Below are positions 2,857 through 61,310 of a stretch of DNA of 64,000 nucleotides, piece by piece; position 1 is the first letter of the stretch; each line of letters begins with the position of its first letter. The DNA is from Dolichospermum sp. DET69 (GTDB lineage: Bacteria; Cyanobacteriota; Cyanobacteriia; Cyanobacteriales; Nostocaceae). Location of the stretch: contig CP070233.1 of the NCBI GenBank assembly GCA_017355425.1, forward strand, positions 350,501 to 414,500, read 5' to 3'. The notes beneath the pieces were generated by a model that was not told the origin of the DNA, did no database searches, and was given only the letters and a program-made list of their open reading frames with translations. Made by a program: the position numbers and the translations under genes.

Positions 2857-3093
2857 CTAGTCTTCGTCAGGACCTGCATCATCATCATCATAATCAATAT
2901 CACTAATTCCGTCGTCTGCGCCCAGAAAATCGGATATTACTTCTACATCTTCCCGCGAGTCTGTTTCGTGGATATCACGGGCTATGAGTCGGCCACCCAG
3001 CCGCAACCAATCTAGCATGGAAGACTCTTGTTTTAAGGGAATAACCGATGCTCGTTGGTTTCGGGGGGCTTCACGGAGAGGAGAATCTAACAT
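2857..3093 (-). CDS. DUF3134 family protein
   Basis: This is a small acidic soluble protein of 78 residues. It begins MLDSPLREAPRNQRA, continues through a QESSMLDWLRLGGRLIARD segment and ends in a run of Asp and Glu. The central segment matches my memory of the cyanobacterial DUF3134 family, whose function is unknown. I prefer the ATG at 3093 over an in-frame GTG at 3105, since family members start near MLxSPLRE. A heptamer repeat follows the gene and the IscB-related element at 3216-3646 lies upstream, so about 120 bp is left for its promoter. No catalytic motif is visible. Confidence 0.75.
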   Translation of the reverse strand: MLDSPLREAPRNQRASVIPLKQESSMLDWLRLGGRLIARDIHETDSREDVEVISDFLGADDGISDIDYDDDDAGPDED

Positions 3094-3215
3094 ATCAGCA
3101 ATCACACAATAGGGTTTATATAACTAGACATTAAGAGTCTATCATTTGATACGAGTTAATTTATTCCTTCATACAACTCTTTAATTGCTTAATCCGAATC
3201 AAAGAAAATTTTCAT

Positions 3216-3646
3216 AAGAATACCCGGTAAGTGGGAAACTCAGACACTTCAGTGCTGAGAGGGAAACGACTCGTGCGGTTTTAACCGCCTTGAATATTTT
3301 TTCATTACCGCCTTGGAGTTGGGAAATTCGGGGTACTTTTGTGGTGTACTTTCAACGGGACAATTACCGATTCAAATTTTCCAACTCTGTACGCATAATG
3401 TTTTGCTCACTCATAGCCTCCCATTTCTGGGGTAATGTTAGCTTCGTCAATGTTTTAAGAGCTTGTTAGGCTTGCAACACTGTTTCAGTGACTTTGAAAC
3501 TGTTTAATCACAAGCGACAGGGCAGGGAACTAGCTTCGGATTCCAGGGTGTCGTGACTCAAAAAACGTAGTCAGTTAAGACTTAGACTGGTCAGTACAGC
3601 TTGCAATTTCTTACAAGCTCAGTCCCTTTAGGGCTGAGTTACTGAC
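3216..3646 (-). mobile_element. IscB-family miniature element: complete omega-RNA, nuclease gene deleted
   Basis: Read on the minus strand, this 431-bp unit starts GTCAGTAACTCAGCCC and ends at the same right-end hairpin as the complete IscB element at 45632-47240. Its first 230 nt align with that element's omega-RNA almost without gaps. A ribosome site and ATG follow, but the frame (MSEQNIMRTELENLNR) stops after 16 codons at 3364-3414. A short unrelated stretch and the right end come next. So it is a non-autonomous, MITE-like derivative. No target duplication is seen, as expected for IS200/IS605-type transposition. ATGA (TCAT on the plus strand, 3212-3215) lies directly outside the right end, as for the other two copies. 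Confidence 0.85.
3416..3646 (-). ncRNA. Candidate omega-RNA (HEARO-type guide RNA) of the miniature element
   Basis: The 5' stem GTCAGTA/TACTGAC, the AGCTTG/CAAGCT hairpin and later helices of the IscB omega-RNA are all retained. One later hairpin shows a compensatory change: C-G in the complete element is T-A here, and the next pair goes from T-G to C-G. That suggests selection on structure before or after the two copies separated. By analogy with IscB systems the guide would be read from the 5' flank at 3647-3662. Expression is not shown, and no nuclease is encoded in cis. Confidence 0.7.
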
Positions 3647-3763
3647 TTAATTAGGGAACGGTAGCCAAAAAGGCATTATTCATGAATTGTATGCTCGTAG
3701 ACAAACAACATTAATATTTTATTAATGATGTTTCATCATGCAAACTCTACCAGGTACAGGGCA

Positions 3764-32923: not shown

Positions 32924-33595
32924 TTACACCAAAGCCGCTACCTTCCCCAACAAACCTTGAAACAAGCGCAAACCATCAGTATTACCTAACGCTTTATCTG
33001 CTGCTCGTTCTGGATGTGGCATCATGCCCAAAACATTGCCTTGAAGATTACAAATCCCCGCAATGTTGTTAAGTGAACCGTTGGGATTTTCTTGATAACG
33101 AAATAAAACTTGTCCGTTGGCTTCGATTTCTGCTAAAGTGGTCTCGTCACTGTAGAATCGCCCCTCTCCGTGAGCAATGGGCAAAGTCATAATTTCCCCT
33201 TCAGCATAACCTTGAGTCCAAGGTAAATTATTCCGCTCAACTTTCAAGGGAGAGCGATCGCAAATAAAATGCAAATCTTGATTTCTAGCCAATGCCCCAG
33301 GTAATAAACCAGCTTCAGTTAATACCTGAAACCCGTTGCAAATACCCAAGACAAATTTACCTTGTTGTGCATGGTTAATTACTTGCTGCATCACAGGAGA
33401 GAAGCGAGCGATCGCCCCACAACGCAAATAATCCCCATAACTAAAGCCACCAGGGACAATCACCACATCTATATCACTAATATCAGTATCTTGATGCCAA
33501 ACCATGCGCGTTGGTTGTCCTAGCAAATCTCTAGTCACATACGCCACATCACGATCACAATTAGAACCGGGAAAAACTAAAATACCAAATTTCAT
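32924..33595 (-). CDS. purQ: Phosphoribosylformylglycinamidine synthase subunit PurQ
   Basis: PurQ is the glutaminase of the FGAM synthase complex (PurL-PurQ-PurS) in purine synthesis. The 223-residue protein begins MKFGILVFPGSNCDRDVAYV. It has PGGFSYGDYLRCGAIARFSP, the nucleophile elbow GICNGFQVL with Cys, and the C-terminal GMMPHPERAAD with His and Glu of the triad. PurS lies upstream on the same strand with a 250-bp repeat-filled gap between. That gap is unusual for a purS-purQ pair and has been expanded by heptamer repeats. The enzyme looks complete. Confidence 0.97.
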   Translation of the reverse strand: MKFGILVFPGSNCDRDVAYVTRDLLGQPTRMVWHQDTDISDIDVVIVPGGFSYGDYLRCGAIARFSPVMQQVINHAQQGKFVLGICNGFQVLTEAGLLPGALARNQDLHFICDRSPLKVERNNLPWTQGYAEGEIMTLPIAHGEGRFYSDETTLAEIEANGQVLFRYQENPNGSLNNIAGICNLQGNVLGMMPHPERAADKALGNTDGLRLFQGLLGKVAALV

Positions 33596-33596
33596 T

Positions 33597-33840
33597 GTTT
33601 GTTAGTTGTCAGTGGTCAGTGGTCAGTTGTCAGTGGTCAGTTGTCAGTTGTCAGTTGTCAGTTGTCAGTTGTCAGTTGTCAGTTGTCAGTTGTCAGTTGT
33701 CAGTTGTCAGTTGTCAGTGGTCAGTTGTCAGTTGTCAGTTGTCAGGGAATAGGGAATAGGGAATAGGGAATAGGGAATAGGGAATAGGGAAGGTAAAAGT
33801 TTTTCCCCATTACCAATTACCAATTACCTATTACCCATTA
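33597..33840. repeat. Heptanucleotide tandem repeats (GTTGTCA and GGGAATA)
   Basis: About twenty copies of GTTGTCA or GTGGTCA are followed by about seven copies of GGGAATA, then by accaattacc/cctattaccc. Two 7-mers side by side fill the purS-purQ gap. This is the largest array in the window and may change in copy number between strains. Confidence 0.92.
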
Positions 33841-43944: not shown

Positions 43945-44068
43945 CGTAAGAATTCAGGAGTCACCGAGTCAGGAGTCAGGAGTCACCGAGTCAGAATATT
44001 TGTATTTATTTAGGCAAAAACTACTGACAACTGACAACTGACAACTGACCAATGACAACTGACAAATG
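43945..44068. repeat. Tandem repeats of CAGGAGT/ACAACTG type
   Basis: The region holds gagtcaccgagtcaggagtc and then caactgacaactgacaactg (7-mer CAACTGA). They lie between der and the CbiQ-like gene. Confidence 0.85.
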
Positions 44069-44075
44069 ACTATAT

Positions 44076-45008
44076 ATGGACTTATTGCGATCGCTCCCTC
44101 TCGGACTTTACTTAGAAGAACCGCAAACTTGGTTACACAAACTCGATCCGCGAGTGAAGTTAATTTGGTTATTGAGCTTTCTAAGTAGCTATATTGTCGC
44201 TAATAACTATTGGCGGGTATTACTGGTATTACTGCTAATTACCTTTACTGTATTTGCCAAAATTCCTCTGAGAGTGTGGCGACAACAAATGGGCTGGTTG
44301 TTGATACTATCATTTATGGTCTTAGTCATCGGCTCAATTAGTCCTGATGGATTAGGTGTAAGTTATCAATCCCGCTTACCTGCAAATGAACAAATCCTCA
44401 CTCAACCAATACCTGATAAAAATACCCAAGTTACCCCAGAAATAGCAGACAGTAATAAAAAATATAGTTATGTGCTATTTCAGAAAGGATTTGTGAAAAT
44501 AAATCGCCGTTCTTTGGATTTAGCAATTAGTTTGAGTACAATAGTTTTTACATTAATCTACAGCACTAATTTATATTTACTCACAACCGCACCGGAAGAA
44601 ATCACTTCTGGTTTGGAAAGTTTAATGCAGCCTTTGCGAAGGTTCAATATTCCCGTCACAGAAATTACCCTGACTCTAACTTTATCTTTGCGGTTTATTC
44701 CCCTGGTTTTAGAAGAAATTCAAAATCTAGTTCGTTCCGTGATGACTAGGGCAATTAATTGGAAAAAGCTCGGATTAAAAGGAGGAGCAAAAGTTTGGTT
44801 AATCGTGACTGAAAGGTTATTAGAAAATCTGCTTTTGCGGGCAGAACAAATGGCAAATGCGATGATAGTAAGGGGTTTTACCAGTCCCAATGAGCATCGA
44901 GTTAGATGGCAAGAGTTAAAATTAAAAATAGGTGATTGGTTAGCGATCGCAATTTTAATAGTATTTTGGGGAATTAGGATAGCTTTCGGCGCTGATATTA
45001 CAGCGTAA
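44076..45008 (+). CDS. ECF transporter T component, CbiQ family
   Basis: The 310-residue protein has membrane spans throughout and the CbiQ signature: LHKLDPRVKLIWLLSFL near residue 20 and the coupling helices with LRRFNIPVTEITLTLTLSLRF and ARAINWKK. A further span, WLAIAILIVFWGIRIAF, is at the C-terminus. T components couple the ATPases to the substrate-binding S component in vitamin or metal uptake. The ATPase and S genes are not adjacent, so the substrate cannot be told. It follows der on the same strand. A strong hairpin terminator lies 20 bp past its stop. Confidence 0.88.
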   Translation: MDLLRSLPLGLYLEEPQTWLHKLDPRVKLIWLLSFLSSYIVANNYWRVLLVLLLITFTVFAKIPLRVWRQQMGWLLILSFMVLVIGSISPDGLGVSYQSRLPANEQILTQPIPDKNTQVTPEIADSNKKYSYVLFQKGFVKINRRSLDLAISLSTIVFTLIYSTNLYLLTTAPEEITSGLESLMQPLRRFNIPVTEITLTLTLSLRFIPLVLEEIQNLVRSVMTRAINWKKLGLKGGAKVWLIVTERLLENLLLRAEQMANAMIVRGFTSPNEHRVRWQELKLKIGDWLAIAILIVFWGIRIAFGADITA

Positions 45009-45631: not shown

Positions 45632-45871
45632 GTCAGTAACCCAGCCCTAAAGGGACTGAGCTTGTAAGAGAAATTAAACAAGCTGTACTGACCAGTCTAA
45701 GTTTTAACTGACTACGTTTTTAGAGTCACGACACCCACCGGATGCGTAGCTAGTCCCATGCTCTGTCGCTTGCGGTTAAACAGTTCTAAGGTCAATGGAA
45801 CAGTGTTGCAAGCATAACAAGCTCTTAAAACATTGACGAAGCTAACTTTACCCGTTCGCGGAGGGACTTTA
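45632..45871 (+). ncRNA. Candidate omega-RNA (HEARO) of IscB
   Basis: The 240-nt region from the left end to the IscB start is non-coding and highly structured. GTCAGTA pairs with TACTGAC to close a 5' module with AGCTTGT/ACAAGCT inside. A later hairpin GTTC/GAAC and a 3' CCG-TTCG-CGG hairpin are present. The miniature element at 3216-3646 keeps the whole region with compensatory base changes. In known IscB systems such an RNA lies directly upstream, with the guide read from the 5' flank; here that is 45616-45631. Its expression is inferred. Confidence 0.85.
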
Positions 45872-47155
45872 ATGTCCAAAGTATTTTTAATTGACACAAA
45901 CAAAAAGCCATTAAATCCAATTCATCCAGCACAAGCAAGACAATTACTAAGAAATAAAAAAGCAGCCATTTTTAGACGATTTCCATTTGTTTTAATCCTT
46001 AAAGAATCATGCCAAGATCCTATAATTTCACCATTGAGATTAAAAATTGATCCTGGCGCAGAAACAACAGGAATTGCACTAGTCAATGACACTACTGGCG
46101 AGGTTGTATTCGCAGCCGAATTAAAGCATAGAGGCTTTGCAATTCGAAATTCTTTAATATCGAGAAGACAATTAAGACGTAGTAGGAGAAGCCGAAAAAC
46201 AAGATATCGTCAATCAAGGTTCTTAAATAGAACCCGTCCAAAAGACTGGTTGCCACCAAGCTTACAAAGTCGCATTGAAAATATCAAAACTTGGGTTAAT
46301 AAGTTACAGCGATTTGCACCTATTATTGCAATTAGCCAAGAACTTGTACGTTTCGATATGCAATTAATGCAAAATCCCGATATTCAAGGAAAAGAATATC
46401 AGCAAGGCACATTGTCTGGCTACGAAGCAAGGGAATATTTACTAGAAAAATGGGATAGACAGTGTGCTTACTGCGGAGCTAAGGATGTGCCATTGCAGGT
46501 TGAACATATTCATCCACGCGCAAAAGGTGGCACTAATTCAATTACAAATTTGACATTAAGCTGTGAAAAATGCAATGTCAAAAAAGGGACTAAAGATATC
46601 AAAGATTTTCTTAAAAAAGACACCAACAGACTAGAAAAAATCTTGAAACAAGCCAAAAGACCATTAGCCGATGCAGCAGCAGTTAATACAACTAGATTTG
46701 CGTTGCTCGAAGCTTTGAAAGCCACTGGCTTGCCAGTAGAAACTGGCTCTGGAGGGTTAACAAAATTCAATAGAAGTCAACAGAATATTGATAAAACACA
46801 TTGGCTAGATGCAGCCTGTGTCGGCAAATCAACGCCCAAACTAATAATCAAAAATATCAAACCGTTACTGATAACTGCCAATGGGCATGGTAGTAGACAA
46901 TCATGTCGTACAGATAAATATGGCTTTCCAAAACGCTATGTTCCTAGATTCAAATTTGTTCAAGGGTTTCAAACTGGGGATATTGTCAAAGCTATTGTCA
47001 AAACAGGCAAGAAAATTGGTAAGTATCTAGGGAGAGTCGCTGTCAGAACTACAGGAAGTTTCAATATTTCTACTAAGAACAAGTTAGTTCAAGGCATCGG
47101 GCATAAAAACTGTATTTGTGTCCATAAAAAAGACGGCTATAGTTACTCAAATTAA
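45872..47155 (+). CDS. iscB: RNA-guided HNH/RuvC endonuclease IscB
   Basis: IscB is the transposon-encoded ancestor-type relative of Cas9. The 427-residue protein has the PLMP-like N-terminus (DTNKKPLNPIHPAQARQLL). RuvC-I is LKIDPGAETTGIAL with Asp60. The Arg-rich bridge helix is near 98-120 (RRQLRRSRRSRKTRYRQSR). RuvC-II is ISQELVRF with Glu157. The HNH domain at 190-240 has CAYC, QVEHIHPRAKGG with His212, and CEKCN. RuvC-III is HWLDAACVG with His310 and Asp313. All catalytic positions are present. The ATG at 45872 has GGAGGG 7 nt upstream; a TTG at 45833 lies inside the omega-RNA and is rejected. It is the only gene of its element. Confidence 0.96.
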   Translation: MSKVFLIDTNKKPLNPIHPAQARQLLRNKKAAIFRRFPFVLILKESCQDPIISPLRLKIDPGAETTGIALVNDTTGEVVFAAELKHRGFAIRNSLISRRQLRRSRRSRKTRYRQSRFLNRTRPKDWLPPSLQSRIENIKTWVNKLQRFAPIIAISQELVRFDMQLMQNPDIQGKEYQQGTLSGYEAREYLLEKWDRQCAYCGAKDVPLQVEHIHPRAKGGTNSITNLTLSCEKCNVKKGTKDIKDFLKKDTNRLEKILKQAKRPLADAAAVNTTRFALLEALKATGLPVETGSGGLTKFNRSQQNIDKTHWLDAACVGKSTPKLIIKNIKPLLITANGHGSRQSCRTDKYGFPKRYVPRFKFVQGFQTGDIVKAIVKTGKKIGKYLGRVAVRTTGSFNISTKNKLVQGIGHKNCICVHKKDGYSYSN

Positions 47156-47240
47156 AAAGATTCAATGCCTTTATTACCGCTCGTGTCGTTTCCCTCTCAG
47201 CACGCTTTGTGACTGAGTTTCCCACTTGCCGGAAGTTCTT

Positions 47241-61011: not shown

Positions 61012-61034
61012 ATTAGAATAATAAATTTTTTAAA

Positions 61035-61310
61035 AGCAAATCTGGCGACTGGAAGTCACGACTACACAGACAAAACCCACCTCCGTGGGTTAAGAACAAG
61101 TAGTTTTTCTTAGTCCACGCAGGTGGACTTTGTTTGTGTAGTTGCGGTTTCTAACCGCCTCAAAATTAAAAAGCAAATCTGGCGACTGGAAGTCACGACT
61201 ATACAGACAAAACCCACCTCCGTGGGTTAAGAATAAGTAGTTTTTCTTAGTCCACGCAGGTGGACTTTGTTTGTGTAGTTGCGGTTTCTAACCGCCTCAA
61301 AATTAAAAAG
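61035..61310. repeat. Tandem duplication of a 137-bp palindromic repeat
   Basis: Two almost identical units (about 61034-61170 and 61171-61307) contain tctggcgactggaagtcacg, acagacaaaacccacctccg, cttagtccacgcaggtggac and gcggtttctaaccgcctc. Each unit forms a long imperfect hairpin. An inverted relative is at 34655-34775. It lies between a secreted-type protein gene and the metal-binding protein gene. Confidence 0.9.

Follow-up and report, generated by a model that had tools for sequence, protein, structure and literature searches.

The window, that is, the whole stretch of 64,000 nucleotides of Dolichospermum sp. DET69 that was analysed, contains a short element of 431 bp and a full-length element of 1609 bp that encodes IscB. 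The short element is a non-autonomous IS200/IS605-type element without protein genes, and it lies on the minus strand in the direction of its omega-RNA. Its ends are exact. On the forward strand it starts directly after TCAT (3212–3215), and read on the minus strand it begins with GTCAGTAA at 3646 and ends before ATGA (3215–3212). The order on the minus strand is the HEARO RNA, a GGGAGG hairpin, a small hairpin, a structured domain and the end hairpin. The features of both elements and of their flanks are as follows.

3216–3646, minus strand: non-autonomous IS200/IS605-type element, 431 bp (empty site in ten of 15 same-genus relatives; copies in the own genome)
3432–3646, minus strand: omega-RNA scaffold, HEARO RF02033 (156.1 bits, gathering score 83, full model, positions 1–211 of 211; covariation)
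3417–3432, minus strand: CCCC/TGGG hairpin with the Shine-Dalgarno-like GGGAGG (sequence)
3405–3418, minus strand: small hairpin, with GCTC/GAGC and GCAC/GTGC versions in other copies and here the source of a 16-codon frame (sequence)
3303–3401, minus strand: core of a second structured RNA domain (match of model R1 at 3301–3419; alignment and covariation)
3239–3259, unstranded: subterminal hairpin CTCAG..CTGAG of the TCAT end, a transposase-type end (sequence)
3618–3638, unstranded: subterminal hairpin of the guide-side end, within the omega-RNA (sequence)
3212–3215, minus strand: ATGA (TCAT on the forward strand), target-site flank and putative TAM (junction survey; empty sites)
3647–3662, minus strand: 16-nt guide segment in the host flank (position relative to the omega-RNA 5' end; restores the empty site together with ATGA)
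2857–3093, minus strand: small downstream ORF in the same orientation, 78 codons plus stop, starting 122 bp from the element (translation only; end computed by hand)
45632–45851, plus strand: omega-RNA of the IscB-encoding copy (HEARO, 153.1 bits)
45872–47155, plus strand: iscB with RRXRR and HNH domains (NF040563, 451.6 bits, model 1–314 of 314; Pfam RRXRR and HNH; solved IscBs); the start was chosen by hand, and the listed frame opens at TTG 45833
45632–47240, plus strand: full-length IscB element of 1609 bp whose right end and ATGA flank are those of the short element (sequence; junction survey)

A reading made from the sequence alone had described the short element as a 431-bp unit with a complete omega-RNA and right end, and the HEARO match over model positions 1–211 agrees with this. 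The 16-codon frame noted in the same reading is present, though trivial, as the small-hairpin variant that creates it occurs in just four of the 70 HEARO copies of the genome. In PMC9581776, the IsrB omega-RNA is described with a terminal hairpin containing a Shine-Dalgarno sequence and with the stem-loops SL7 and SL8. By analogy with this description, the hairpin at 3417–3432 is probably the terminal hairpin of the omega-RNA and the counterpart of SL7. The arms of the end hairpin at 3239–3259 vary among copies, while their pairing, judged by eye, is maintained.

The insertion can be reconstructed from relatives. When the flanks of the element are joined, ten of 15 same-genus relatives contain them as uninterrupted sequence. 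Eight of these align end to end, over positions 1–492 or more, with 87–96% identity, and in G010 and G012 the flanks align in two pieces because of other insertions 70–80 bp away. Extra bases lie near the site in G003, G007, G011 and G015, and G001 gave no match. The empty-site join is TCAT|TTAATTAG, without target duplication, as expected for an IS200/IS605 insertion into a fixed short target; only G013 carries TTCG on the forward strand in place of TCAT. Except in G013, where the motif differs, guide and ATGA adjoin each other in the empty sites. In G010, the 20-nt guide and the ATGA directly after it are identical over 24 nt to the prediction from the element flanks. Host DNA on the 5' side of the omega-RNA thus matches the empty site beside a fixed motif, which is the arrangement of guides in HEARO/IscB-type omega-RNAs. 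A search of the own genome for guide plus ATGA with up to three mismatches returned no intact target; the sole match was the element's own junction, with two mismatches. Among the 43 scored right junctions of the genome, 42 read ATGA and one ATAA, each at 8 bases from the end motif, in a pattern that allowed only these two tetranucleotides. G012 carries an independent copy with the second RNA; it is inserted at a different TCAT, 70 bp from this one, has the same orientation, and its omega-RNA is interrupted by an N. Close to the place of that copy, G010 (locus L291) has an unrelated palindromic insertion of about 170 bp near the site that is homologous to window position 3135. Elsewhere in the window, arrays of a heptad repeat (GTCAGTT) occur in opposite orientation at 33586–33745 and 44020–44083, and a 137-bp tandem duplication at 61029–61302.

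Omega-RNAs and IscB genes in the genome

The own genome consists of two contigs with 6.04 Mb in total. The 431-base query yielded at least 50 matches, with the best 40 of 159 candidates scored. Including the element itself, 31 of these matches are 77–100% identical and span the query completely or for the most part, and many copies are 84–97% identical to the window element. The HEARO model has 70 matches in the genome, 53 of them above the gathering score. IscB (NF040563) exceeds its cut-off at only seven places, and one of these seven frames contains a TGA. For 56 of the 70 HEARO matches (48 of the 53 above the gathering score), no RuvC-type IscB or IsrB match lies within 5 kb downstream; for one of the 56, an HNH-only match follows 1 kb on. 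The remaining 14 are followed on the same strand, at a distance of no more than 5 kb, by a match to the RuvC part of NF040563. These matches are the seven IscBs, an IsrB-like gene and a partial iscB that are both adjacent, and five others 2.2–4.4 kb away. The window element, without an iscB of its own, is not encoded beside iscB or isrB. It had been suggested to supply a second guide to the IscB encoded 42 kb away. The supported part of this idea is that the flank of an intact, covarying omega-RNA provides a guide and that the IscB element has the same kind of ends; "a second guide" understates the situation, the element being one of the 56 omega-RNAs just mentioned.

At L135:2728-5482 (the 3694899 region), an IsrB element of about 3.5 kb, which shares the right end of the short element, contains an ORF with reverse-transcriptase and HNH parts between the omega-RNA and the IsrB frame; by eye, this ORF is of the group II intron type. 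The same gap of 2.2–2.4 kb between omega-RNA and IsrB is found in the L135 region and at 1613953, 707562 and 4390351, the ORF having been read in L135 only. In two other genomes, group II introns lie within or beside elements (L275:1367-1444 and L276:1606-1675), and these look like separate insertions into such elements.

Within the genus, ten of the 15 genomes contain IscB above the cut-off and at least 2–31 HEARO matches (median 12), and the five others (G006, G008, G009, G011 and G015) contain one to six. These counts come from the best 32 candidates at most per genome, which makes high counts lower bounds, and the comparison ignores ancestry and assembly quality. The presence of omega-RNAs in genomes without IscB above the cut-off implies that a current IscB is not needed for omega-RNAs to be present.

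The sequence-only reading had also compared the window element with the 45.6-kb copy and noted stem changes that keep pairing. These changes are real. In the alignment described below, the short element has U-A at columns 236/249 where the 45.6-kb copy has C-G, and C-G at columns 237/248 where that copy has U-G; one of its hairpins is four columns shorter. As two copies cannot test covariation, an alignment (A2) of 45 of the 47 copies beginning with GTCAGTAA was used, with L091 and L131 left out. All but one of the 45 copies are without iscB, and the Rfam structure was projected onto the alignment from the window copy. Changes on both sides were found in 13 pairs, compared with 8.1 in shuffles, and in 83 cells, compared with 23.9; neither value was reached in 500 shuffles. 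The covariation score of 0.118 (0.067 in shuffles) was likewise reached in none of the 500. On a FastTree tree, nine of 16 double changes on the same branch preserve pairing, whereas randomly re-paired columns give a mean of 0.33 and never reach nine in 1000 runs. The covariation test across copies that had been proposed in that reading thus comes out in favour of the omega-RNA structure, by shuffles and by tree.

Other measures are weaker. Further pair types are not above shuffles in A2 (104 of 500 reach the value), and pairing-preserving single changes on the tree are not significant (P 0.105). In total, 84.4% of the cells are paired, and several Rfam consensus pairs are unformed in these copies. 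G-U cells exceed A-C cells only modestly (255 versus 146, or 81 versus 62 in pairs with at least ten Watson-Crick cells). The single-sequence fold of the omega-RNA has a z-score of −2.68, with three of 200 shuffles as good. As the alignment looks mosaic, gene conversion between copies may partly underlie the double changes within the genome.

These data bear on the view that the copies are relics, i.e., IscB elements with internal deletions that are moved by TnpA and in which the omega-RNA is passive, conserved by the youth of the copies and by ends that serve the transposase. Mobilisation by TnpA alone would fit the hairpin ends and the exact empty site, the high identity of many copies to the window element would fit recent spread, and HEARO matches persist in same-genus genomes without IscB above the cut-off. 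Against this, the covarying pairs lie in the interior, far from the ends, copies that have diverged to 77–80% identity still score 91–141 bits with HEARO, and the second RNA described next is unmatched in the IscB element of the window. Passive relics are considered unlikely.

A second structured RNA behind the omega-RNA

Directly behind the omega-RNA and on the same strand lies a domain of about 100 nt with a three-way junction. The middle of 38 aligned copies is long in 30 and shorter, with a different hairpin, in eight. The first fold was obtained from 29 of the 30 long-middle copies, one with a rearranged right end being set aside. The final alignment (A1) comprises 58 sequences out of the 97 full copies that are distinct, taken from the own genome, from relatives and from named cyanobacteria; it omits near-identical copies as well as L156 and L161, which have length changes. 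The resulting fold consists of an outer stem, a long stem and a three-way junction bearing two hairpins.

Covariation in this domain is pronounced. In A1, 98.1% of the cells are paired (93.7 in shuffles), and changes on both sides occur in 11 of 28 pairs (6.1 in shuffles) and in 89 cells (30.7 in shuffles). None of five measures was reached in any of 500 shuffles, and the signal is destroyed by sliding the partners, a control in which the structure is favoured, having been derived from A1 itself. At columns 40/100, the pairs GC, CG, UA, UG, GU and AU all occur, with seven of 58 cells unpaired. On the tree, ten of 11 double changes on the same branch preserve pairing (null mean 0.83), as do 73 of 105 single changes (null mean 29.5). 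The alignment contains 233 G-U cells and 11 A-C cells on the strand of the omega-RNA, which places the second RNA on that strand. Its single-sequence fold is modestly better than shuffles (z −1.71, eight of 200 as good).

Among 386 genomes of the phylum, 25 contain a match to model R1 of this RNA; they belong to 11 of 142 genera, all within the order of the window, in a search with strict filters that may have missed weak matches. A 20-base pattern found at least 80 stretches in Dolichospermum, Anabaena, Microcoleus, Nostoc, Cylindrospermum, Calothrix, Tolypothrix, Tychonema, Lyngbya and other genera, and the RNA is present in 20 of a set of 60 genomes. Across the whole own genome, R1 gave 32 matches among the best 150 of 2545 candidates scored, identical to the 32 in the fetched loci. 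An omega-RNA lies directly upstream in 31 of these 32, the exception being the copy at 1869583. In the loci of the own genome, relatives and named cyanobacteria, 97 of 112 copies of the second RNA have the omega-RNA upstream. Seven of the other 15 are at or near the end of a contig or locus by their coordinates. Among the remaining eight, L161 and L162 reach the HEARO gathering score, L172 scores 32 bits, L170 is truncated, the upstream sequences of L152 and L239 are HEARO-like by eye, and those of L156 and L160 are ambiguous. In contrast, R1 has no match in the seven own IscB loci, ten TnpA loci and six IsrB-region loci.

The description of the element as a nuclease-less IscB derivative is not supported for this interior, of which about 100 nt are a separately conserved, covarying RNA found in 25 of 386 genomes and in none of the seven IscB loci. 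A degenerate iscB was ruled out on the same grounds. Several other identities were tried and rejected. A known RNA was ruled out by Rfam 15, which at E ≤ 10 over positions 3150–3700 of the window returned HEARO and one weak match outside the element, and none for the second RNA. Coding on the reverse strand was judged by eye only, the frame showing stops and frame changes among copies. By the general biology of IS200/IS605 elements, the transposed strand would here be the one carrying TCAT before the end. A DNA structure serving transposition was rejected because the excess of G-U over A-C favours the omega-RNA strand, opposite to the presumed transposed strand.

The second RNA could also be a part of an extended omega-RNA that acts on IscB or IsrB without forming a separate module. 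Its position would fit, as in 31 of 32 own copies it comes right after the terminal hairpin and lies on the same strand, and IsrB omega-RNAs of up to about 300 nt are mentioned in PMC9581776. Yet seven own IscB loci do without it, eight of the 38 aligned iscB-less copies have the short middle instead, and it lies beyond the hairpin that holds the Shine-Dalgarno sequence in IsrB, as described in PMC9581776. An extension of this kind is regarded as improbable. The second RNA appears to be undescribed. Neither it nor the placement at start codons reported below was found described in the part of the open-access literature that was covered, which does not prove absence, and passages of PMC9755519, PMC11362101 and PMC6006769 contain nothing bearing on either subject.

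Candidate transposase and placement at start codons

The own genome contains 16 Y1 matches, and ten tnpA loci were examined. Three of these (L065–L067) carry the end hairpin of the element (nhmmer E 3e-17 to 3e-18). They are of a type that encodes a Y1 transposase and a TnpB-like protein (Pfam, Y1_Tnp; one of each scanned), and the guide-side end of this IS605 is similar to that of the element in type only. The candidate TnpA occurs at 90% identity or more in four of 60 genomes (the own genome, G005, G010 and G020). As the second RNA is found in 20 of 60, the link between this TnpA and mobilisation of the element is suggestive. At G000:C1:56227 (L114), an omega-RNA element directly adjoins a sequence like the IS605 end hairpin, an arrangement that suggests a nested insertion.

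The end of many copies coincides with the start codon of a gene. At 17 of the 43 scored junctions, the ATG of the flank opens an ORF of at least 100 codons, compared with 260 of 2400 background sites (10.8%, P 1e-6), the background being ATGA sites in the surrounding DNA. If only most-upstream starts are admitted, the figure is 73 of 2400 (P 3e-15). With a threshold of 93 codons, 18 of 43 junctions compare with 63 of 397 sites that are start-like or intergenic (P 4e-5). In all of these tests, copies count as independent and ORFs are simply defined. Only copies whose right end and junction could be recognised entered the count, which leaves 43 of 44 copies with the end motif, out of 70. The 43 include the IscB copy of the window (36 codons), three IsrB elements (3, 346 and 8 codons) and L078, which was mis-scored with 27 codons as a farther end motif was taken, the nearer junction opening 228 codons. 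L124 (327 codons) falls outside the count, its end motif being unrecognised, as do the ten copies of a second family, family B, that adjoins ATGGC. The short element of the window does not itself adjoin a start codon; the frame that its ATGA opens has 8 codons, and the next ORF read is the one starting 122 bp on.

A Pfam family was assigned to 17 of 24 ORFs scanned behind elements. These ORFs include hemA (glutamyl-tRNA reductase), a P-II protein, a CPP1-like protein, DUF2555 and an S41 protease, and furthermore an OppC-like protein, PspA/IM30, DUF29 and two Uma2 proteins. A DAHP synthase ORF lies behind an IsrB element. At some right ends, GAGG is located 4 nt before the ATG.

The second family of orphan omega-RNAs begins with GGGATCATTCTAAAA and ends with GATTAGGAC. 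Ten copies adjoin ATGGC, a motif that the search pattern demanded, and are found at L113, L116, L117, L118 and L126–L130. One of them, at L130, immediately precedes the start codon of the gene for ribosomal protein S14. An omega-RNA similar to this family accompanies three IscB copies that score equally (288356, 2884473 and 5039690).

The position at start codons raises the possibility of a leader-RNA element, in which selection acts on the second RNA and on a right end at the start codon of the gene behind, by way of that gene's regulation or of its tolerance of the insertion, and in which guiding of IscB is incidental. The 17 of 43 junctions, the Pfam families behind elements, the GAGG before some start codons and the strong structure of the second RNA would suit such an element. 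Short-middle copies without the second RNA are also placed at start codons, though (L088, L090 and L102), the excess could stem from the ATGA target combined with survival, and the omega-RNA is conserved too. It seems rather unlikely that the element is maintained as a leader alone.

Proposed mechanism and relation to known systems

The reading preferred here, with moderate confidence, is that the element is an RNA-only member of the IS200/IS605 type that is moved by TnpA and whose omega-RNA is used in trans by IscB, thereby favouring retention of the element. A Y1 transposase acting in trans would move the element as single strands into TCAT sites, the best candidate being the IS605 of the own genome with tnpA and tnpB and the common end hairpin. 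On insertion, the host DNA to the left of the element would become the guide, and the RNA would target the original empty site, consisting of guide and then ATGA. IscB from one of the few full-length copies probably uses the RNAs of such elements in trans, and by analogy with established IscB/OMEGA biology the copies likely guide it. Cyanobacteria are often polyploid. IscB would cut chromosomes that have lost or never had the insertion, and repair would then copy the element in. Since so many copies stop right where the start codon of a gene begins, transcription from a host promoter could yield the omega-RNA as a 5' leader. The second RNA, which takes the place of iscB behind the omega-RNA, would act as a 3' module of this leader, in processing, protection or translation of the gene behind. 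A bolder proposal is that the second RNA represents a new functional class (a ribozyme, a processing signal or a translation relay) and forms an RNA-only selfish element together with the omega-RNA, which TnpA would move, IscB would force into empty chromosomes, and host promoters at start codons would supply with expressed guides. This combination is tentative and somewhat doubtful.

In such a system, dozens of natural guides in each genome may rely on a single IscB gene or on a few, and the selfish role of OMEGA nucleases would become testable in cyanobacteria. A further gain is a structured RNA that covaries clearly and appears to be undescribed. The target motif of the transposon coincides with start codons, which brings guide RNAs into likely 5' leaders of the host.

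Several known systems share features with the element. ISC transposons (Kapitonov 2015) are reportedly IS605-like elements that encode IscB; in the present copies, by comparison, no encoded protein was found. Non-autonomous, MITE-like IS200/IS605 elements are short, without a long ORF, and have end hairpins and no target duplication, while the copies described here bear a guide RNA as cargo. With the IscB/HEARO omega-RNA (OMEGA, RF02033), the element shares the RNA family, the guide in the 5' flank, the motif on the far side and ends of the IS200/IS605 type, but it has no nuclease gene and a second structured RNA in its place. The terminal Shine-Dalgarno hairpin is common to the element and the IsrB omega-RNA described in PMC9581776, and here it is followed by the three-way-junction domain of about 100 nt. 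Also related are the standalone omega-RNAs of Altae-Tran 2021, which, according to PMC9581776, where that work is cited, can function with IscB, likewise lie away from iscB and were proposed to act in trans. Trans-guiding by standalone omega-RNAs, which the sequence-only reading had taken to be undescribed, is thus an idea already reported, and what appears to be new is the second RNA.
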